From positions 1 to 38,162 of the forward strand of contig JAQVJR010000003.1 of the NCBI GenBank assembly GCA_028695015.1: DNA of 38,162 nt, read 5' to 3'. Every line of letters begins with the position of its first letter. Position 1 is the first letter of the stretch. The notes beneath the pieces are model-generated. The model was given only the letters and a program-made list of their open reading frames with translations. It did not search any database and was not told the DNA's origin. A program made the translations under genes and the position numbers. Shown here in pieces: positions 4,961 to 20,196 of this stretch. This stretch comes from Minisyncoccota bacterium (GTDB lineage: Bacteria; Patescibacteriota; Minisyncoccia; UBA6257).

Positions 4961-5015
4961 TTGACAAGAAAATTTTATAGATATACTATGATAATATACA
5001 GATTTGTATATTATC
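4961..5015 (+). promoter_or_regulatory. Promoter (TTGACA-17 bp-TACTAT) followed directly by a 26-bp inverted-repeat operator
   Basis: TTGACA 4961-4966, TACTAT 4984-4989, then GATAATATACA-GATT-TGTATATTATC 4990-5015 (11-bp perfect arms); ATG at 5028. Confidence 0.75.
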
Positions 5016-5027
5016 ACTTGGAATTAT

Positions 5028-5594
5028 ATGAATAATGCAGAACGTTTAGCCATATTAAATAAAACAAATAAAACAACTTTTTCAGCAAAGTTTCTAATTG
5101 ATATTTGGAAAGTTAAAAAAGAATCCTTTGGTGTTATAGTAAAAAGAATGGTAGATAAAGGATTATTATTTAGAATAGCTAGGGGATATTATAGTTTGAA
5201 AGAAGATTTTAATATTTATGAATTAGCAAATACTGTTATTACTCCCTCATATATTTCTTTTAATAGTGCTCTTGTTTATCATGGTGTAGCTTTTCAGGCT
5301 AGTAAAGAAATAGAATCAGCTGCTTTAATTAATTACAAAAGAGAAATGGCTGGTTATATTTTAAAATATTTTGTACTTAAAAAAGAATTATTACTGAATT
5401 CAGAAGGGATTATTCATTTGGAAAATTTTATTATAGCTACTCCTGAAAGAGCTATCTTAGATTGTTTGTATTTAAATATGTTTCCTAATATTGATAATAT
5501 AGAGAAGGTTAATAAATTACGATTAGGGAATTTATTAAAATATTACCCACAATCAGTAAAGAATAAAATTAAAGATTTATTCAATATTTCTTGA
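5028..5594 (+). CDS. AbiEi-like antitoxin (type IV TA, winged-helix)
   Basis: N-terminal wHTH (FLIDIWKVKKESFGVIVKRMVDKGLLFRIARGYYSL), SFNSALVYHGV; followed directly by a nucleotidyltransferase toxin. Confidence 0.8.
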   Translation: MNNAERLAILNKTNKTTFSAKFLIDIWKVKKESFGVIVKRMVDKGLLFRIARGYYSLKEDFNIYELANTVITPSYISFNSALVYHGVAFQASKEIESAALINYKREMAGYILKYFVLKKELLLNSEGIIHLENFIIATPERAILDCLYLNMFPNIDNIEKVNKLRLGNLLKYYPQSVKNKIKDLFNIS

Positions 5595-5597
5595 TTT

Positions 5598-6296
5598 ATG
5601 ACTCAAAAAGGATTTCCTGCTGAAAAGCATAAAAGAATTCTTACAGGGGTTTTATTAGATATATTTAAATACCTAGATGGCAAAATTGCTTTTAAGGGAG
5701 GTACTGCTGCTATGTTATTTTATGGATTACCTCGGCTTTCTTTAGATTTAGATTTTGATGTTATAAAAGATTTAGATTCAGAAGATATAGACAGGATAAA
5801 GATAGTTATTGAAAAATATGGCCGGATTAAAGATTTTTATAATAAAAGGTATGCTTTGTTTTTCTTATTAGATTATGAATTAAATGCTCCTAATATTAAG
5901 CTAGAATTTAGCAAAAGGAAATGGAAAAATAATAACTATGTAACTCACTGGCTTTCTGGGACTGAGGTGAAAATTGTCGATATTCCAACCATGGTTACTC
6001 ATAAAATAATAGCTTTGACTGATAGAAAAGTGCCTGTTGCTCGTGATTTATTTGATGTTTACTATTTTTTGAATAAAGGGTATTCTATTAATCCTGAATT
6101 ATTAAAAGAGAGGATTAATAAATCCCAGAAAGAATATTTAAATGATTTAATTAAGTTTATAGAGAGAAATTATAATTCAAAAAATGTTTTACAGGGCATA
6201 GGTGAATTAGTTAATGAAAAAGAAAAAGAATGGTTAAGAAAAAACTTAGTTACAGAAAGTATAAAAGAAATAAAGAAATACCTAGAGAAATATTAA
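5598..6296 (+). CDS. AbiEii-like nucleotidyltransferase toxin
   Basis: FKGGTAAMLFYGLPRLSLDLDFDV (NTase motif), ARDLFDVYYFL; 3 nt after AbiEi. Confidence 0.87.
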   Translation: MTQKGFPAEKHKRILTGVLLDIFKYLDGKIAFKGGTAAMLFYGLPRLSLDLDFDVIKDLDSEDIDRIKIVIEKYGRIKDFYNKRYALFFLLDYELNAPNIKLEFSKRKWKNNNYVTHWLSGTEVKIVDIPTMVTHKIIALTDRKVPVARDLFDVYYFLNKGYSINPELLKERINKSQKEYLNDLIKFIERNYNSKNVLQGIGELVNEKEKEWLRKNLVTESIKEIKKYLEKY

Positions 6297-6302
6297 TAAA
6301 TT

Positions 6303-7385
6303 ATGAAAGTTTTTATTATATTAGGCACTCGTCCAGAGATTATAAAAATGTCTCCGGTTATCAGAGCTTGTCAGGAAAACAAGGTAAATTTTGCTATTTT
6401 ACATACTAATCAACATTATTCTCAGAATTTAGATAAAATATTCTTTAAAGAATTAAATTTATCTCAACCAAGATATAATTTAAATGTTGGTTCTGGTACT
6501 CATGCTGAGCAAACAGCTAAAATCCTTGTTAGTATAGAGAAGATTTTATTAAAAGAAAAACCAGATATTGTTTTAGTTCAAGGAGATACTAATACAGTTT
6601 TAGCTGGTGCTTTGGCTGCTGCTAAAATCCATATTAAAGTAGGCCATATTGAAGCTGGGTTAAGGTCTTATTTTAGAGAAATGCCAGAAGAAATTAATAG
6701 AATTTTAGCTGACCATTGTTCTGATTTGCTTTTTGCACCAACAAAAAAAGCAAAGGAAATTCTTTTAAAAGAAGGTATTTCTAATAAAAATATATTTGTT
6801 ACTGGTAATACAATAGTAGATGCTGTTTTTCAAAATATGAAACTAGCTGAACAAAGATCAAAGATTTTAAAAAAATTAAATCTTCAAAAAAATCAATATT
6901 TTCTAATAACAGCTCATCGGGCAGAAAACGTTGATAATCAAGAAAGATTAAAAGGGATTTTAAAAGGAATAGAAATGATTAATAAGGAGTTTTCTTTACC
7001 TGTTATTTATCCTATTCATCCTAGAACTAGAAAAATGTTAAAAGAATTTAAATTATCAATTCCTAAAAATATTAAATTAATAGAGCCTTTAGGCTATTTA
7101 GATTTTCTTCTGCTTCAAAAAAATGCTAAACTAATTTTGACTGATTCTGGGGGCATTCAAGAAGAAGCTTGTATTATGAAAGTGCCTTGTATTACCTTAA
7201 GAGATAATACAGAAAGACCAGAAACCCTAATAATTAAAAGTAATATTTTAGCAGGTACTAATCCTGAAAAAATATTAAAATCAGCTAAAAAAATACTCAA
7301 TTCTAAAAGACAATGGAAAAATCCATTTGGAAATGGCTTAGCTGGAGAAAAAATCATTAAGATTATTAAAAAAAGTATACAATGA
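6303..7385 (+). CDS. wecB: UDP-N-acetylglucosamine 2-epimerase (non-hydrolysing)
   Basis: GTRPEIIKMSPVIRA, LVQGDTNTVLAGALAA, HIEAGLRS, TDSGGIQEEA. Confidence 0.93.
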   Translation: MKVFIILGTRPEIIKMSPVIRACQENKVNFAILHTNQHYSQNLDKIFFKELNLSQPRYNLNVGSGTHAEQTAKILVSIEKILLKEKPDIVLVQGDTNTVLAGALAAAKIHIKVGHIEAGLRSYFREMPEEINRILADHCSDLLFAPTKKAKEILLKEGISNKNIFVTGNTIVDAVFQNMKLAEQRSKILKKLNLQKNQYFLITAHRAENVDNQERLKGILKGIEMINKEFSLPVIYPIHPRTRKMLKEFKLSIPKNIKLIEPLGYLDFLLLQKNAKLILTDSGGIQEEACIMKVPCITLRDNTERPETLIIKSNILAGTNPEKILKSAKKILNSKRQWKNPFGNGLAGEKIIKIIKKSIQ

Positions 7386-10167: not shown

Positions 10168-11382
10168 ATGAAGAAAAATATCTTAATTATCACAGATTCT
10201 TATCCTCCAGAAATCCGTTCAGCAGCGCAATTAATGAAAGATTTGGCTAATGATTTAAATAATAGAGATTATAATATTTGGGTTGCCACCTCTTATCCAA
10301 AATATAATTTAGTTAATACAGAAGAATCTGTTTGGCCAGAGATTAAAGATGAAAACGGGGTTAAGGTTTTAAGAATTAAGACCTTACCTCATCATAAAGT
10401 AAATTTTGTTATTAGAGGATTGGCTCAATTAATGATGCCTTGTCTTTTTTTTAATAAAATAAAAAGAATAATTAAACAGAAAATTGACATTGTAATTGTT
10501 CACAGTCCACCTTTGCCCTTAGCGATTACTGCTTTGAAGATAAAGAATTTTTATAAAGCAAAATATATTCTTAATCTCCATGATATTTTTCCTCAAAATG
10601 CCATTGATTTAGGAATTTTGAAAAACAAACTGATAATCAAATTTTTTGAAAAAATGGAGAAAAAAGCTTATCAGGGCGCTGATTTAATTGTTGTTCCCTC
10701 TAATAGTCATAAAAAATTCTTAGAAGAAAAAAGAAATATTCAGCCTCAAACAATACAAGTAATTCCTCATTGGATTGACATGAAGCCATTATTAAAATTA
10801 CAAAAAACAGATAAATTCAGGAAATTATATAACCTAGAGGATAAATTCATTTTTCTATTTGGTGGGGTTTTAGGTCCTTCTCAGGGTTTAGATTTATTAA
10901 TTAGGATTGCAGATAAAATACAAGAATATAAAGATATTGTTTTTCTTTTTGTTGGTGATGGCTCTGCTAAAAAAGAATTAATAGAATTAACAAAACAACT
11001 TAATCTTAATAATGTTTTATTCAAATCATTTGTTTCTTTAGAAGAATATCCATTATTAGTTAAAGATTGTGATGTTGGTATAATTTGCTTAACAGGGAAA
11101 AACACAACCCCAGCTGTGCCAGCAAAACTTATAGGATATATGGCTTCAGCTATTCCTGTTATTTCTTTTCTGCATGAACAAAGTGACGGAGGGGAGATTA
11201 TTAAAGAAGCTCAGTGTGGTTATGCTTTAAAATCAGGTGATTTAGAAGAAGCTGTAAAAATTATTGAAAAAATGTATAAAGAAAAAAACAAATTACAAGG
11301 GTTGGGCCATAATGGTTTTCAATATGCCTTGAATAATTTTGATATAGATGTTTGTGTAGGTAAATTTGAAGATTTATTTTAA
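10168..11382 (+). CDS. Glycosyltransferase family 4 (WbuB-like)
   Basis: ITDSYPPEIRSAAQLMKDLANDL, LNLHDIFPQNAIDLGIL, GGVLGPSQGLDLLI, PAVPAKLIGYMASAIPVI. Confidence 0.87.
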   Translation: MKKNILIITDSYPPEIRSAAQLMKDLANDLNNRDYNIWVATSYPKYNLVNTEESVWPEIKDENGVKVLRIKTLPHHKVNFVIRGLAQLMMPCLFFNKIKRIIKQKIDIVIVHSPPLPLAITALKIKNFYKAKYILNLHDIFPQNAIDLGILKNKLIIKFFEKMEKKAYQGADLIVVPSNSHKKFLEEKRNIQPQTIQVIPHWIDMKPLLKLQKTDKFRKLYNLEDKFIFLFGGVLGPSQGLDLLIRIADKIQEYKDIVFLFVGDGSAKKELIELTKQLNLNNVLFKSFVSLEEYPLLVKDCDVGIICLTGKNTTPAVPAKLIGYMASAIPVISFLHEQSDGGEIIKEAQCGYALKSGDLEEAVKIIEKMYKEKNKLQGLGHNGFQYALNNFDIDVCVGKFEDLF

Positions 11383-11404
11383 ATTTAATTTTTTTATAAT
11401 TATT

Positions 11405-12319
11405 ATGCAAAAATCAATAAGCAAGGAATCTATCAAAGCTCGATTAATAGGCGGAGAATATTTTTCAGAGTTATTAATAGTTTTAAAAAATGTTTTACTT
11501 GAAAATAAAAAAGGTTCATCTTTAAGGAATAGATATATCATTGAAAAATATTTTCTAGGAACTACATTTGCTATAAACAAGCCATATATATACTTGGATG
11601 AGAGATATGGAAAAAAGCAATACTTTAACTTTGATGGTATTTTGTTTCCCAAGTTTTTATCATTCCAAGCCAAGGCCAATTTAGTTATGACTTGGCTAGA
11701 TTTTATATATCCTTATTTAACCAATGATTACAGCAGTGCCTTTGATGAAGGTCCTTATTTATATAAAAATATTCAAATACGGAAAGGAGATATAGTTATA
11801 GATGCTGGGGCTAATCTAGGTTTATTTTCAGCCTTAGCTTCTTTTTTAGGAGGAGTAGTTTATGCTTTTGAGCCAGTAAAAGAGATAAGAAAAGAATATT
11901 TAGAAAAAACAATTAAATTAAATAAAAATATTTTTTCTATTCCTTATGGGTTGTCAAATAAAAAAGAGTTAATTAATATAAAAGGAAATGTAATAGGTGA
12001 TGCCACTATAATTAGAAAAAGGCAGGAAGATATAAGAAATAATACAATTAACGAATACATTAAGGTAATTGATTTAGATAGCTGGATAAAGGAAAACAAT
12101 ATATCTAGAATAGATTTTATCAAGGCAGACATTGAGGGAGCAGAAAGACTAATGCTGGAAGGAGCACAATGGGCTTTAAAAACATTTTCTCCGAAATTAA
12201 GTATATGCACTTATCACTTACCTGACGATAAAGAAGTTTTAACGAAATTAATTCTTCAGGCGAATCCTAATTATAAAATAGAACATAGGTGGAAAAAATT
12301 ATATGCTTGGGTGGAATAA
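11405..12319 (+). CDS. FkbM family methyltransferase
   Basis: GDIVIDAGANLGLFSALAS, FIKADIEGAERLMLEGA. ATG at 11405 preferred over upstream 11366. Confidence 0.87.
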   Translation: MQKSISKESIKARLIGGEYFSELLIVLKNVLLENKKGSSLRNRYIIEKYFLGTTFAINKPYIYLDERYGKKQYFNFDGILFPKFLSFQAKANLVMTWLDFIYPYLTNDYSSAFDEGPYLYKNIQIRKGDIVIDAGANLGLFSALASFLGGVVYAFEPVKEIRKEYLEKTIKLNKNIFSIPYGLSNKKELINIKGNVIGDATIIRKRQEDIRNNTINEYIKVIDLDSWIKENNISRIDFIKADIEGAERLMLEGAQWALKTFSPKLSICTYHLPDDKEVLTKLILQANPNYKIEHRWKKLYAWVE

Positions 12320-12366
12320 TTTTTAAATTAACGGAATGCAAATAATATGATTTATTACAAAAAAGC

Positions 12367-13848
12367 TTGAAGGTATCTTTGAAAACAGCTAAAAATATTT
12401 CTTACATGCAACCAATTAAAGATAAAATTAAAAGAATTATAGGATTTTTTCCGTCAAAAATAGAAAAATATATTTATAATTATTATTGGTATATACGTAG
12501 TTTCCCAAAATTGTCTGTTCTGTATGTTAAGCTTATAACTCTACCATCAATCATTAAGGAAATTGAAAAAGAAGATTCTTTTATAAAGAAGAAAAATACA
12601 GCAAAGAATCAGGTAAAAAAAGAAAAACAAAACTTGGTATTTAAGGACATAGAAAAGGCACAGCCTCAAATTAATTCTTTATTTCATTCTTCAACATATC
12701 AATATAAGATAGATAAACTAAAAGCCATTGGAGATCTTAAGAAGAGACAAGATATATTTAACCAAATTGCCCCAAACTTCTTTCAAGGGCAGAATTTTTT
12801 AAACATTGGTTGCAATACAGGATATTTTCCTCTTGTAGCGGCACAATTTTTTGAAAAAGTTCAAATTATTGATGAAGATGAAAAGTTTATAAAGTTATGC
12901 AAGACATTAAAACAATCAAACATGGAGGTTTTTCATGATTCTTTTCGTGATTTTATGCCATTGATTGAATTTGATAAAATTTTTATAGATAATGTTCACC
13001 ATCATATTTTTAAACAATGTAGAGGGTGGGAGTGGATTTGTAAATTGGCTGCAATATCTAACGGAGAGGTGTTAATAGAAGGACCGGTAGATACGGATTA
13101 TAAAGATATAAAAACTTTATTTTCTAAAGAATTACAATCAAAGTTTACATTTGAAGATTTTATGCAAGCTATGGATCCATTTTTTTCTTTAGAAAAGAAA
13201 ATAAAGTCTATTAATCCTGACTGTTGGGTAATGTTGTTTAAAAGGAAACTTAATAGAATTAATAATCAAGTTCAATTAGATAATTTACCCATCACAAAGA
13301 TTCTTAAGAATGGAATTCATTCCTTGGTTTATTTAACAAGGTTCAGTGGAAAAAAAATTGTTGCAAAAATAATTCCCCCTCGCTTTGCTCTTAATGATTA
13401 TAAAATTAGAATCCAAATTGCTTCTTTTTCTCCTTTAAGCAACGGTATTACAGGATTCATATATAAAAATAATAAATTTGTTGGATGGTTCGAAGAATAC
13501 GAAGATAAGCGAGTCAATAGAAGTAAAGAAAATCAGGTAGAATTATTAAAGTTAATCTGTGATCATGTTATATTCTTAGCTAAATTAGGCTATTTTGATA
13601 TAGATTGCTCAACACGTAATTTTTTTAAAGAAAGTAATAAATTTTTTGATAAAGGAGGAGTAGTTCATATTAAAACATTAGATTGGAATATAGATGGTAC
13701 TTCTAATTTATCTAAGTTTTTTCAAAACCTGAATGATGGTTTTAATATTATTGATAAAGAGATGTTAGAGATTATTTACAATGCTTTAAATAGTAAAGAT
13801 TTATATTTGATAGAACAAGCATTTATTAGTATTAAAAATCGATTATAA
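12367..13848 (+). CDS. SAM methyltransferase fused to a C-terminal kinase-like domain
   Basis: MTase motif FLNIGCNTGYFPL; C-terminal KKIVAKII (VAIK-like), DIDCSTRNFF (D-x4-N catalytic loop spacing) and LDWN (DFG-like). The ORF start is TTG; ATG at 12406 is an alternative. Confidence 0.7.
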   Translation: MKVSLKTAKNISYMQPIKDKIKRIIGFFPSKIEKYIYNYYWYIRSFPKLSVLYVKLITLPSIIKEIEKEDSFIKKKNTAKNQVKKEKQNLVFKDIEKAQPQINSLFHSSTYQYKIDKLKAIGDLKKRQDIFNQIAPNFFQGQNFLNIGCNTGYFPLVAAQFFEKVQIIDEDEKFIKLCKTLKQSNMEVFHDSFRDFMPLIEFDKIFIDNVHHHIFKQCRGWEWICKLAAISNGEVLIEGPVDTDYKDIKTLFSKELQSKFTFEDFMQAMDPFFSLEKKIKSINPDCWVMLFKRKLNRINNQVQLDNLPITKILKNGIHSLVYLTRFSGKKIVAKIIPPRFALNDYKIRIQIASFSPLSNGITGFIYKNNKFVGWFEEYEDKRVNRSKENQVELLKLICDHVIFLAKLGYFDIDCSTRNFFKESNKFFDKGGVVHIKTLDWNIDGTSNLSKFFQNLNDGFNIIDKEMLEIIYNALNSKDLYLIEQAFISIKNRL

Positions 13849-13968
13849 AAGGTTGTTATTAAATAAAGACAAACAAAAAAAACCAAAATATTGCAAGATT
13901 GGGATATAATTCAACGCTTTAAAGATTCTATAACTAGAAAAAGTTAGTGAATTATATTTAGAATAATT

Positions 13969-15216
13969 TTAAAGATAAGAATAATGTTTTTTTCTCAATT
14001 TGCGGTAGAGATTCATAACAGGGTTTGGTGCAAGTTTCTTTAAAAAAGATTTAATTTTTTCTTTTACCAATGCTTTTTTATGTTTTATATAAGTAATTTT
14101 GGTAATTTTATATTTTGCCTCGATGTCTTTATTGACTTTACTTTTATTTTTTGGCGAAACTAAAACGAGAATTTCTCTCCCGCCTCTGTGTGAATTTAAT
14201 TGTGTGGATAATTGAAAATTCCATTTTTTACCTATTTCTAGAATAATTTTTTCTTGCTCAAAAGGTATTTCAAAAATGATACAGTCTCCCATAGAAAAGA
14301 TATTATCTAGGGCTTTAGAAATGTTTTTTACATGATGAAGCATATTCAAAACTAAAATGATATCAAAGTATTTTTCAAGACATATATTTTCTACTTCACC
14401 TTGCTTGAAAAAGATTTTTGATTTTTTTAAAGCATGGATTTTTTTAGCTACATCTATAATTTCTTTATTTTTTTCTAAACCAACAATGTCCTTGGCACCT
14501 CTTTCTTCAATTTTAAAACTAAAATACCCATAACAACAACCAATATCTAATATTGATTTATCACTAAAATCTACTAGGTTTTGAATTCTTTCCCAAGTTT
14601 TTTCGCTTTCAGAATATCCTTTAATAATAATTCCTGATGGAAGCTCTATTCTGTGATAGTGAAAGAACTGGTTATTGTCAGTATTTGCAAAACCTGAAAG
14701 GAAGATAAGATCCATCCATCTTTTTTTCCAATCTTCTTTTTTAATAAACGCCAATTTATTATTAGTAGTGTCTACGGTTATTAAATTAGGGTTTAAATGC
14801 GCAACATAAATAAAGAGACTGGATGTTAGTTGTTTAATTGCTTGTTCACTATAATCTATTTTACATTTTTTCTTTTTTCGCTTTTCAGTTTGCCGTCTTT
14901 TTATTATATGTGGGGCCGCAAAACAAAAATAGATTTCAGAGCGAAGATCCAGTTCTTTTATTAAATCTTCCAAGTTAATATTTTCACTAAAGCCATCAAG
15001 CACAAGAGTATTAGCTTTAGTTGTTTTTATAATACTTTCTAAGAAATTTAATAATTTCTCTTTTTCTATTTTATTATTACTTGTTTTATAATAATGAAAT
15101 AAGTCAAAATTTATATATTTAGCTTTTTTTTCTTTGCAGAGACGCTTGGCTAAATATGTTTTTCCTGAACCAGGTAATCCATAAATTAATATTAATTTTC
15201 TTTTTTGTTTAGTCAT
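13969..15216 (-). CDS. P-loop kinase-like domain fused to a C-terminal SAM methyltransferase
   Basis: Walker A IYGLPGSGKTYLAK at the N-terminus; SAM motif SILDIGCCYGYFSF; LVLNMLHHV. Only substantial minus-strand gene in the window. Confidence 0.82.
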   Translation of the reverse strand: MTKQKRKLILIYGLPGSGKTYLAKRLCKEKKAKYINFDLFHYYKTSNNKIEKEKLLNFLESIIKTTKANTLVLDGFSENINLEDLIKELDLRSEIYFCFAAPHIIKRRQTEKRKKKKCKIDYSEQAIKQLTSSLFIYVAHLNPNLITVDTTNNKLAFIKKEDWKKRWMDLIFLSGFANTDNNQFFHYHRIELPSGIIIKGYSESEKTWERIQNLVDFSDKSILDIGCCYGYFSFKIEERGAKDIVGLEKNKEIIDVAKKIHALKKSKIFFKQGEVENICLEKYFDIILVLNMLHHVKNISKALDNIFSMGDCIIFEIPFEQEKIILEIGKKWNFQLSTQLNSHRGGREILVLVSPKNKSKVNKDIEAKYKITKITYIKHKKALVKEKIKSFLKKLAPNPVMNLYRKLRKKHYSYL

Positions 15217-15363
15217 AGCTTTTTATTAATAAATCTTAAGAATGTGCTTTACTAAATATTCAAATTTGTTTAGAATTAAATTATACATCTATTTTTTACT
15301 ATATATCAGTAGTTTTTATAATGATTTAGCTTATTATAATGAAAAAATGATTTTTATGCAATT

Positions 15364-16695
15364 ATGTTTTCAATAAAAGAAAAGGTTTCTGCCTTAAATC
15401 ATATATCTGTTACTTTTAGTTCTATGGTAATAAGGTTATCTCTTAATCTTTTAATAGGGATTGTTGTTGCTCGTGCTTTGGGTCCTAACGGAAAAGGGCT
15501 TTTGGCAGTTATCGTAATGATTGGGACAACCATTATTAATTTAGGCAATTTAGGGATTAGTAGCTTTAATACCTTTGCTATTTCAAATAAAAGTGTTGAG
15601 GAAAAAGATATCATCAGTAATTCTTTTTGGTTGGGTCTAATTATTAGTTTAATATCTTTTTTTGTTGTTTTAGTTTTAGCATTTAATCTTCCCATATTCT
15701 TTAGGAATATCCCTAGGAGCTATTTGCTTATTTATCTGGTATCTTTGCCTTTTATTTTTTGGGCTAATTTTTTTGATGGGATATTGATAGGAGAGCAAAA
15801 GTTCAGATTATATAATATTTTTAGTGTTATAACCCAATTAATAAGCTTAATCGGAGTAATTTTATTATTATTGGTATTTAGGCTTAATGTTTTTTATGTT
15901 GTAGTTTGGTATGCATTAATAAATATTATAGATGCTTCGTTGCCAATGAGATCTGTTTTGTCAAGATATGGATTAAGCTTTAAGATTAATGTCAATGTTT
16001 TTAAAAAATCTTTAGACTATGGCTTGAGAATATTCTTAACTGGTATTTTTTCTCTTTTAATATTACGGATAGATTTATATATGGTGAATTTTTTCAAAGG
16101 CATGGTTGAGGCTGGTTTATACTCTTTAGCTTCTACTTTTGGTAACATCTTTTTTTATTTACCTTCTTCAATTACTACTGTAATGTTTCCTAAAATTAAT
16201 ATTGAAAATAAATCAAAAAAAGAATCAGTGGCAAGATATTCTCGAATTTCCTTTTTGTCTGTTTCAGTACTTGCTCTAGGTACTTTGTTGTTTATTAAAT
16301 TTCCAATAGGATTGTTGTATGGTCGAGAATTTCTTTCAGCAGTTCAGCCCATATTATTACTTTTGCCTGGGTTAATAGCTTTATCTGTATCTAATGTATT
16401 AGGTTTATATTTTTTAAGCACCAAATATCCTTTTAAACTTACTATTAGTTGGTTTTTGGCCACAATACTCAATGCCTTATTGAACTTTATTTATATTCCC
16501 CAATATGGGATGGTAGCAGCTGCAATTACCTCAACCATTAGTTATTTATTAGTTTTTGGCTTTCATTATTATTTCTTTCATAAAGAAACCAAGATGGGTT
16601 TTTATGATATTTTAGTGCCCCGGAAAGAAGAAATAAGTAGTATTATTGAGAGAATAATGAAATTTTTGAACAAAGGTATTAAAAATAATACATAA
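15364..16695 (+). CDS. Polysaccharide flippase (Wzx/MATE-like)
   Basis: Polytopic protein; N-terminal VTFSSMVIRLSLNLLIGIVVARALGPNGKGLLAV typical of oligosaccharide flippases. Confidence 0.87.
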   Translation: MFSIKEKVSALNHISVTFSSMVIRLSLNLLIGIVVARALGPNGKGLLAVIVMIGTTIINLGNLGISSFNTFAISNKSVEEKDIISNSFWLGLIISLISFFVVLVLAFNLPIFFRNIPRSYLLIYLVSLPFIFWANFFDGILIGEQKFRLYNIFSVITQLISLIGVILLLLVFRLNVFYVVVWYALINIIDASLPMRSVLSRYGLSFKINVNVFKKSLDYGLRIFLTGIFSLLILRIDLYMVNFFKGMVEAGLYSLASTFGNIFFYLPSSITTVMFPKINIENKSKKESVARYSRISFLSVSVLALGTLLFIKFPIGLLYGREFLSAVQPILLLLPGLIALSVSNVLGLYFLSTKYPFKLTISWFLATILNALLNFIYIPQYGMVAAAITSTISYLLVFGFHYYFFHKETKMGFYDILVPRKEEISSIIERIMKFLNKGIKNNT

Positions 16696-16725
16696 TACAA
16701 GAGAAAACAAGGTATTTTTAGAAGC

Positions 16726-16776
16726 TTGACAATTGTATATATCAAGCATACAATTGTATGTAAATAGCATACAGTT
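16726..16776 (+). promoter_or_regulatory. Promoter (TTGACA-17 bp-TACAAT) embedded in a 21-bp iterated operator with a 14-bp palindrome
   Basis: TTGACA 16726-16731, TACAAT 16749-16754; palindrome CATACAATTGTATG 16747-16760; repeats of 21-bp period starting at 16726, 16747 and 16768; ATG at 16780. Confidence 0.75.
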
Positions 16777-16779
16777 ATC

Positions 16780-17325
16780 ATGATTCCAGCTTTTACAAAA
16801 AACCAATCATTAATCTTAGAGATATTCTTCAATCATTCAGAAGATTCTTATTATCTTCGTCAAATATCCCGTTTTTTAAATAAAGAACCAGGGGTTTTCC
16901 AACGAGATATTAATAATTTAGTCAAAGATGGCATCTTAGAAAGTTATTACCAAGGGAATAATCGATTCTTTAAAATAAATAAAAACTATCCCTTATATAA
17001 AGATTTTAAGAATATTTTTTTTAAAACAATAGGCGCTAAAGGAGAATTAGAAAAAATTCTAAAAAATACAAAAGGAATAAAAGAAGCTTTTATTTATGGA
17101 TCTTTTGCCAGAGGAGAAGAAAAAAAACAAAGTGATATTGATTTATGCATTATAGGTTCAATTAATGAAAATTCTTTAATTAAAAAATTAACTCAATTAG
17201 AAAAAAAGATAAATAGGGAAATTAATTATATCTTATTAAGCGAAAAAGAGTATAAAGATAAATTAAAAAATAAAAACTCTTTTTTAGAAAATATTATTAA
17301 ACAAGAAAAAATATATTTGACATGA
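16780..17325 (+). CDS. wHTH-nucleotidyltransferase (MNT/MntA-like antitoxin candidate)
   Basis: N-terminal winged-helix (YYLRQISRFLNKEPGVFQRDINNLVKDGIL) plus GSFARGEEKKQSDID, which fits GSX10DXD. Confidence 0.85.
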   Translation: MIPAFTKNQSLILEIFFNHSEDSYYLRQISRFLNKEPGVFQRDINNLVKDGILESYYQGNNRFFKINKNYPLYKDFKNIFFKTIGAKGELEKILKNTKGIKEAFIYGSFARGEEKKQSDIDLCIIGSINENSLIKKLTQLEKKINREINYILLSEKEYKDKLKNKNSFLENIIKQEKIYLT

Positions 17326-17783
17326 AGGAGTTTTTAGAAAAATATAAAGACGCAGGGTTTATTAAAGAAGAGCAGATAGGGTTTGATCAAGTAAGTAAGC
17401 ATCTGACAAGGGCGATAGAAGATATAAAAGTTGCAGAGGCAAACACAAGCATTGATACTGGGGTAGCGTATAATTATGCCTATTTGGCAATGTTAAGGAC
17501 TGCTCGGGCTTTAATGTTTTCTTTTGGTTATCGTCCAATTAATGGTCAGCAACACAAAACTGTAGTGTTTTTTGCGGAAAAAACCTTAGGCCCAAAGTTT
17601 TCAGATTTAATAGAATATTTTAATAGAATGAGAAAAAAGCGTAATAGGTTTACTTATGATGAGCCTGATCTTTTAGTATCAGAAGAAGAAACAAAAAATG
17701 CCATTATTACTGCAAAGGCATTTGTTCCAGAGGTAACACAATTTATAAAAAAGAAAAACCCACAAAAAGAATTAAAATTATAA
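17322..17783 (+). CDS. HEPN domain protein (HepT-like toxin candidate)
   Basis: Overlaps the NTase stop codon; all-helical HEPN-like sequence with RMRKKRNRFTYDEP. Confidence 0.8.
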   Translation: MKEFLEKYKDAGFIKEEQIGFDQVSKHLTRAIEDIKVAEANTSIDTGVAYNYAYLAMLRTARALMFSFGYRPINGQQHKTVVFFAEKTLGPKFSDLIEYFNRMRKKRNRFTYDEPDLLVSEEETKNAIITAKAFVPEVTQFIKKKNPQKELKL

Positions 17784-18864: not shown

Positions 18865-20196
18865 ATGTTACAAAATAGAATTAAAACTTTTTATTTGGTT
18901 GTTGGTGATTTGATTGTTTTTTATGTCTCTTTGGTTTTAGCTATTCTTATTAGGCATGGTTGGCCTTTTGATGTGGGGGTTTTTCATCAAAGCTTGTTTC
19001 CATTTTCTTTTATCTTTGTAATCTGGATTATCTTGTTTCTAATTAGTCATCTATATGAATTAAGACATGCGATTAATAGAAGAAAATTCTTTGAAATGGC
19101 TTTTAAATTATTTGGTATTGGAGCTATAATAGGCATAATCTATTTTTACCTTTTTGTACCTTCTTTAGCACCAAAAATAGTTTTATTTTTAACAATTCTT
19201 TTCTCTTTAACTTTGTTTTTAATTTGGCGGGGATTGTTTAACCGAATAATAGAAGTTCCTAAATTAAAAGTTTTTATAATCTCAGATACTGAAGAAGCAA
19301 AGGAAATCAATCTTTTTCTTAAAAAACATCCACAATTAGGCTATCAGATAGAAGAAATATTATCTCCTAAGAATATAGAAGATAAAACAGAGAAAATCAT
19401 TAAAGAGATCAAAGAAAAAGAAATTGATGCTATTGTAGTTGATGCAATTTTATTTGAGAGTTTTTTCTCTCTTTTTTCTAAATTTCCTGATATTTATTAC
19501 AAAATTAAAATTATTAATTTAGTTGATTTTTATGAATCTACTATTCAGAAAATACCAATTAATTTAGTAAATCCTTCTTGGTTTGTGGAAAATTATTATA
19601 GTAAAAACAGAGAATTTTATGAAACTATTAAAAGAATATTTGATATTTTTAGTAGTATAATATTGTTTATTTTTACCTTACCTTTTTGGTTAATAATACC
19701 TTGTTTAATAAAAATAGATTCTCCAGGCCCAATTTTACATAAATCTATTCGCAGTGGTTTAAAAGGAAAAGAATTTTATATTTATAAATTCAGAACGATG
19801 GTAGAAGATGCTAGTAGTATTGGACCAGCATGGACTTTGAAGAATGATTCGCGGATTACAAGGTTAGGTAAGGTTTTAAGATATTTGCATTTAGATGAAC
19901 TTCCTCAAATCTTTAATATTATTAAAGGAGATGTTTCTTTTGTTGGTCCACGGCCAGAAGAAATCAAATTAACAAAACTTTTTAAACAAGAAGTTCCTTT
20001 TTATGAATTCAGGGCTTTAATTAAACCTGGGGCTATTGGTTGGGCTCAGCTTAATTATCCTCATGGAGCTTCTATAGAAGATGCAAAAGAGAAATTAAAA
20101 TATGATTTTTATTACTTGAAAAACCGGAATATCTTTTTTGATGCCATTATTGCTTTAAAATCATGGCGCATTCCTTTTGAAATTCCCACTCATTAA
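18865..20196 (+). CDS. Polyprenyl glycosylphosphotransferase / sugar transferase (WcaJ/WbaP type)
   Basis: KRIFDIFSSIILFIFTLPFWLIIPCLIKIDSPGPILHKSIRSGLKGKEFYIYKFRTM, LDELPQIFNIIKGDVSFVGPRPE. Confidence 0.93.
   Translation: MLQNRIKTFYLVVGDLIVFYVSLVLAILIRHGWPFDVGVFHQSLFPFSFIFVIWIILFLISHLYELRHAINRRKFFEMAFKLFGIGAIIGIIYFYLFVPSLAPKIVLFLTILFSLTLFLIWRGLFNRIIEVPKLKVFIISDTEEAKEINLFLKKHPQLGYQIEEILSPKNIEDKTEKIIKEIKEKEIDAIVVDAILFESFFSLFSKFPDIYYKIKIINLVDFYESTIQKIPINLVNPSWFVENYYSKNREFYETIKRIFDIFSSIILFIFTLPFWLIIPCLIKIDSPGPILHKSIRSGLKGKEFYIYKFRTMVEDASSIGPAWTLKNDSRITRLGKVLRYLHLDELPQIFNIIKGDVSFVGPRPEEIKLTKLFKQEVPFYEFRALIKPGAIGWAQLNYPHGASIEDAKEKLKYDFYYLKNRNIFFDAIIALKSWRIPFEIPTH

Follow-up and report, generated by a model that had tools for sequence, protein, structure and literature searches.

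What reaction is catalyzed by a protein that joins a P-loop kinase to a methyltransferase, and on which substrate? The question is raised by a gene, here called K-MT, in a 38,162-nucleotide stretch of DNA (the window; contig JAQVJR010000003.1, assembly GCA_028695015.1) from a Minisyncoccota bacterium. Its genome comprises 516,567 bases and is 99.8% complete, and its phylum also takes in candidate division Kazan. Our answer, which we judge to have an even chance of being right, is that K-MT caps glycans in a WbdD-like manner as one protein, but with a swapped domain order and a P-loop kinase non-homologous to that of WbdD, and that it works in a serotype-like variable locus of the Wzx type.

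Architecture of the fusion protein and its kinase domain

K-MT is a single intact open reading frame of 415 amino acids with an ATG start and no internal stops, and its GC content (26.7%) is in keeping with its locus. A first-pass annotation of the sequence had called it the only substantial minus-strand gene, and the list of open reading frames agrees: the other minus-strand frame of at least 100 amino acids encodes just 101 and overlaps the FkbM gene. The proposed order of a P-loop kinase followed by a methyltransferase was likewise borne out by the Pfam placement, and a basic amphipathic tail closes the protein (Table 1). An AlphaFold model built from three family members gave pLDDT values mostly of 75-92 for the kinase, a moderately confident methyltransferase and two C-terminal helices. 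Over its last 60 residues the window protein has a net charge of +17, and the two relatives for which the charge was counted have +11 and +13, so that the amphipathic tail would fit peripheral membrane attachment near a lipid-linked glycan.

Table 1. Coordinates of the features discussed, in the window unless a locus is named.
Feature	Position	Strand	Evidence
WecB UDP-GlcNAc 2-epimerase	6303..7385	+	TIGR00236, 7.6e-137
Species-specific insert FkbM/MT-K/K-MT/Wzx/MNT-HEPN	11366..17783	.	Comparison with sister genome G003 (L051/L052)
MT-K: weak methyltransferase domain and C-terminal domain with kinase-like motifs, WbdD-like order	12367..13848	+	Pfam, motifs
K-MT, kinase-methyltransferase fusion gene	13969..15216	-	ORF calling, Pfam, three full-length homologues, alignment
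Basic amphipathic helical tail (residues 357-415), putative membrane attachment	13972..14148	-	Charge count; two helices in AlphaFold model
Class I SAM methyltransferase domain, residues 185-356	14149..14664	-	Pfam; PDB matches ToxA, WbdD, CmoB
S342-H343-R344-x-x-R347 (H343 ~ WbdD H197, R347 ~ WbdD R203)	14176..14193	-	Three MAFFT modes; invariant in 4/4 members
H294-H295, counterpart of WbdD H132-H133	14332..14337	-	Alignment; invariant in 4/4 members
P-loop kinase domain, residues 1-175	14692..15216	-	Pfam AAA_33/AAA_14, PDB profile match, AlphaFold model, invariants
Wzx-type polysaccharide flippase, divergent neighbor of K-MT	15364..16695	+	Pfam Polysacc_synt, 2.6e-16
Polyprenyl-phosphate glycosylphosphotransferase (lipid-linked glycan initiation)	18865..20196	+	TIGR03025 over cut-off
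GT-K-MT gene pairs, same-class genome and Kazan MAG	L058:5800-8306 and L028:8064-10557		WecB-like/RmlD-like pair near both

Two P-loop families of Pfam match residues 1-133 (AAA_33 at 8.5e-7, AAA_14 at 1e-7). With AAA_33 the window protein scores 29.8 bits as a whole and 33 bits for the domain alone, against a cut-off of 27, and the scores of its relatives fall slightly under it. The motifs comprise a Walker A, GLPGSGKT (residues 13-20), followed by D/E38, D74-G75, R108, K112 and D149-T-T-N152. The first-pass label of a zeta-like kinase was too loose, since the Zeta_toxin model (PF06414) reaches only E=0.014 and 15.3 bits, below its gathering score of 22.3; AAA_33-like or adenylate-kinase-like describes the domain better, and a Fap7-type adenylate kinase (4cvn) is matched by PDB profile at 1.2e-7. 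The substrate of the kinase cannot be read off the sequence. A sugar substrate would have a precedent, in favor of the capping reading, in the zeta toxins, which are P-loop kinases that phosphorylate UDP-GlcNAc (PMC4179160).

Relatives and genomic settings of K-MT

We found three further full-length homologues, with 37-40% identity to the window protein, in candidate division Kazan bacterium RBG_13_50_9, in the Dehalococcoidales MAG STD1_192 and in G1046, a genome from the same class as the window. Any two of the four members share 37-47% identity over the whole protein, 46-55% over the methyltransferase and 31-42% over the kinase. Both domains are fused in all four of these distant genomes with both catalytic centers intact, and the nucleotide- and SAM-binding residues are conserved: invariant or nearly so are Walker A G16, K19 and T20, D/E38, D74-G75, R108, K112 and D149-T-T in the kinase, and D224, E248, H294-H295, E316 and S342-H343-R344..R347 in the methyltransferase. 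These shared residues indicate that the fusion is old and has been selected as a unit. The family is certainly under-counted, because the scan of the genome collection used two short, insensitive peptide patterns; the G1046 copy surfaced in a profile search of 384 genomes of the class. Phages, plasmids and viral contigs yielded matches to the methyltransferase domain or short matches to the kinase domain and no full-length homologue. No second member was found among 393 genomes of the class of the Dehalococcoidales MAG, so its copy could have arrived by recent transfer or could reflect faulty binning.

All four genes lie in surface-glycan clusters, the setting that the first-pass annotation had supposed for the window gene, and K-MT is thus no mobile passenger found in unrelated contexts. 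In the window the order is WecB, GT4, Gfo/Idh, GT4, FkbM methyltransferase, MT-K (the neighboring candidate fusion), K-MT and Wzx, and beyond Wzx lie UbiA, PgpA and the polyprenyl glycosylphosphotransferase. Wzx adjoins K-MT, no Wzm/Wzt was seen within the window, and an O-antigen-ligase/Wzy protein is encoded elsewhere. The Kazan gene is flanked by a GT on each side. That of the Dehalococcoidales MAG has GT4 on one side and Wzx on the other, and upstream lie RmlD-like, FnlA/PseB-like and WecB-like genes. In G1046 K-MT overlaps the end of an upstream GT by 4 bp, close to Wzx, an initiating transferase, an O-antigen-ligase-like protein and the same three sugar-nucleotide genes. The upstream GT is 57% identical between Kazan and G1046, which shows the GT-K-MT gene pair to be conserved between different classes. 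The sugar-nucleotide trio is complete in two of the other loci, and in the Kazan locus only its WecB-like and RmlD-like members were seen; these genes hint at a sugar of the N-acetyl-L-fucosamine type.

A comparison with the nearly identical sister genome G003 outlined a variable insert. In G003 the 6.4-kb segment is missing and the flanking GT4 and UbiA genes lie 74 bp apart, while the proteins of the flanking genes are 89-100% identical to those of the window. Elsewhere in its locus G003 has a Wzx of its own and another sugar set (RmlA/RmlB-like genes, an aminotransferase, a UDP-sugar dehydrogenase and other GTs). The difference between the two genomes is a serotype-like switching of the surface-glycan locus.

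Two toxin-antitoxin-like pairs flank or lie inside this variable locus, AbiEi/AbiEii (5004-6296) and MNT-HEPN (PDC-M05; 16780-17783), and where the window has its AbiE pair, G003 carries one that has diverged from it (27-34% identity). A peptidoglycan-binding-domain-like protein with two LKKGDKGDEVLNLQKALLLD-type repeats (1360-2802) is 100% identical in G003.

The presence of the AbiE and HEPN/MNT pairs in the locus, together with weak matches of K-MT to mad2, BrxF, mad8 and Zeta_toxin, would be consistent with a role in defence or as a toxin (a zeta-like kinase toxin, or a MADS- or BREX-like component) in a variable island. We regard this as the most improbable of the readings considered here: the matches span generic P-loop or methyltransferase stretches, no antitoxin accompanies K-MT, and its relatives lie in glycan operons rather than in defence islands.

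The neighboring gene MT-K had been read as a second fusion, of opposite domain order and with an unrelated kinase, that would share a coupled chemistry with K-MT. Of these two fusions with swapped order the K-MT side stood, whereas the kinase half of MT-K is a reading of motifs by eye (VAK...DCSTRN...LDW). Its methyltransferase is weakly recognized (Methyltransf_11 at 6.7e-4, just below the cut-off), and its C-terminal half matched no Pfam or PDB family. An hhalign comparison of the latter with the WbdD kinase did not rise above the level of shuffles, so the kinase identity of MT-K is unproven. A single-sequence AlphaFold model was unusable (pLDDT 36), and neither 101 relatives nor 287 genomes of the phylum included a full-length relative. 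With a layout resembling that of Klebsiella O7 ORF6-N and no full-length homologue in any of the searches, MT-K is an orphan candidate glycan terminator.

The idea that both proteins work jointly on one substrate is largely refuted, and we give it little credence. The two genes are convergent neighbors within one insert, and their methyltransferases match the mad2 methyltransferase model and, weakly, each other. However, convergent genes are not co-transcribed, MT-K has no clear counterpart of WbdD R203, and a co-occurrence check found MT-K in none of the three other K-MT loci, being absent from the Kazan and Dehalococcoidales genomes and from the G1046 locus; this absence is where the idea fails. 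By analogy with WbdD, one K-MT protein should suffice for both phosphorylation and methylation. The gap between the two genes is 120 bp, and no intrinsic terminator was found in it. The mad2 (MADS) matches of both methyltransferase domains, to the C-terminal part of the model at about 8e-10, beat those of most other defence models, and a shared methyltransferase subtype is possible.

The methyltransferase domain and the predicted reaction

The Pfam families Methyltransf_11, 25 and 31 match K-MT residues 218-308 at about 1e-12, and the lead-in to the domain, IELPSG...GYS.S.KTWER, is invariant across the family. Its closest relative in the PDB is ToxA, an N-methyltransferase, rather than WbdD, which is among the better profile matches (1e-8); overall similarity therefore does not point specifically to the methylation of a phosphate. 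In Escherichia coli O9a, WbdD first places a phosphate on the 3-OH of the terminal mannose and then adds a methyl group to this phosphate; its mutants H132A, H133A, R203A and Y16F lose methylation and keep phosphorylation, H197 lines a sulphate/phosphate pocket, and its structural neighbors NodS and RebM are reported to be without R203 (PMC3482155). We aligned the methyltransferase of WbdD, taken from E. coli HS, with K-MT. All three MAFFT modes placed H132/H133, H197 and R203 on H294/H295, H343 and R347, while only one of the three placed Y16 on Y187. With hhalign the core aligned at an E value of 9e-10, in an alignment that ends short of the R347 region. As controls we used 26 related methyltransferases, gathered by similarity searches with both window proteins, and five from E. 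coli as reference. The HH pair after motif IV is common by itself (4/26), and the complete set with H343 and R347 was present in 0/26 and 0/5. The conservation of this set in K-MT and its absence from the controls favor phosphate methylation, and so the phosphomethyl cap guessed at in the first-pass annotation is supported as a prediction.

Under the capping model, the basic tail would hold the enzyme at the inner face of the membrane, and there the P-loop domain would move the ATP gamma-phosphate onto a hydroxyl of the sugar at the non-reducing end of a lipid-linked glycan. The fused methyltransferase would then methylate that phosphate from SAM, with H294, H295 and R347 surrounding the methyl group like H132, H133 and R203 in WbdD. 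Because the neighboring export route, unlike that of WbdD, is Wzx, the cap would precede flipping: the methyl phosphate may stop sugar addition, or mark the end of the glycan, before the adjacent Wzx flips it.

The same domains could act in another way, with a sugar hydroxyl being O-methylated directly and the kinase phosphorylating another position or a small precursor (a sugar or sugar phosphate), so that no methyl phosphate is formed. The glycan setting, the generic small-molecule kinase motifs, the resemblance of the methyltransferase to many non-phosphate methyltransferases and the stand-alone glycan methyltransferases common in K-MT loci are consistent with this. We consider it rather unlikely all the same, since a fusion kept without exception in four distant genomes suggests that the two domains act in turn on one substrate, and the phosphate-binding set of WbdD is conserved in K-MT.

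A further alternative is an enzyme of RNA end repair or modification, a polynucleotide kinase with a methyltransferase like bacterial Pnkp/Hen1. The kinase domain weakly matches 4gp6/4gp7 (4e-4), deposited as 'Metallophosphoesterase', which we take to be the Clostridium Pnkp kinase domain, and the methyltransferase matches CmoB by fold and sequence. Yet K-MT has no phosphatase or ligase domains or neighbors, its four loci are glycan clusters, its tail is basic and amphipathic, and the gene is missing from the nearly identical sister genome; an RNA substrate is therefore very improbable.

Comparison with known capping systems

The capping model returns K-MT to chemistry that is already described. 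The first-pass annotation knew of no system with such a pair, and as far as the chemistry goes this is mistaken: WbdD of E. coli O9a and Klebsiella O3 is a methyltransferase-kinase that caps the non-reducing end of the O-antigen with methyl-phosphate (PMC3482155), and ORF6-N of Klebsiella pneumoniae O7 is a methyltransferase-kinase terminator for the same cap, with an AmiN/aminoglycoside-kinase-like kinase unlike that of WbdD (PMC11231755). For a version with a P-loop kinase the statement may hold, as our literature search, with thin coverage of subscription journals, found no P-loop kinase-methyltransferase glycan terminator.

The two documented kinase types for this cap are thus the protein-kinase fold of WbdD and the AmiN-like kinase of O7, and the latter offers a precedent for kinase swapping (PMC11231755). 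A P-loop kinase would be the third. We tentatively propose, at somewhat short of even chances, that K-MT represents a third, independently evolved route to methyl-phosphate capping, in which a P-loop kinase has been placed in front of a WbdD-like methyltransferase. Under this proposal the gene has been exchanged among Patescibacteria, has reached at least one genome assigned to Chloroflexota, and serves glycan assembly of the Wzx rather than the ABC type. If this is true, three kinases that are unrelated or highly diverged have led to the cap, and the cap would itself be the target of selection; a phosphorylated, methylated surface glycan would be predicted in bacteria of almost unknown envelope chemistry, and K-MT would be a compact enzyme for labelling glycan ends.

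Other relatives share single parts with K-MT. Kinases of the AAA_33 (PF13671), zeta and adenylate kinase types have its Walker A, acidic residue after strand 2, D74-G75, basic lid and D-T-T, whereas K-MT differs from them in its methyltransferase fusion, a Zeta_toxin score below cut-off and the lack of an antitoxin. The CmoB/DUF1698 model (PF08003) weakly recognizes the methyltransferase core, but CmoB acts on tRNA and is without the HH/H/R set at these positions. Klebsiella O7 ORF6-N is like K-MT a methyl-phosphate terminator (a predicted one in the case of K-MT) whose kinase is unlike that of WbdD, and it shows that the kinase can differ; unlike K-MT, it has the methyltransferase first and contains a CBM, a coiled coil and GT modules, a layout to which MT-K is closer than K-MT.

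With WbdD, K-MT shares a kinase and a class I SAM methyltransferase in one protein, a glycan locus, a C-terminal region suited to membrane contact and, over about 100 alignable residues with 27-28% identity, a methyltransferase with the residues of phosphate methylation, the equivalents of H132, H133 and R203 that mark the WbdD family being present by alignment. In contrast, its kinase has a P-loop NTPase fold and is N-terminal, whereas that of WbdD is protein-kinase-like and C-terminal to the methyltransferase. Instead of the C-terminal coiled coil with which WbdD recruits the polymerase, K-MT has ~60 residues of short basic helices, and it lies beside Wzx, while WbdD and O7 ORF6-N belong to ABC-exporter pathways and have long coiled coils. 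By kinase fold, domain order and coiled coil K-MT is not a WbdD, but it plausibly works like one.
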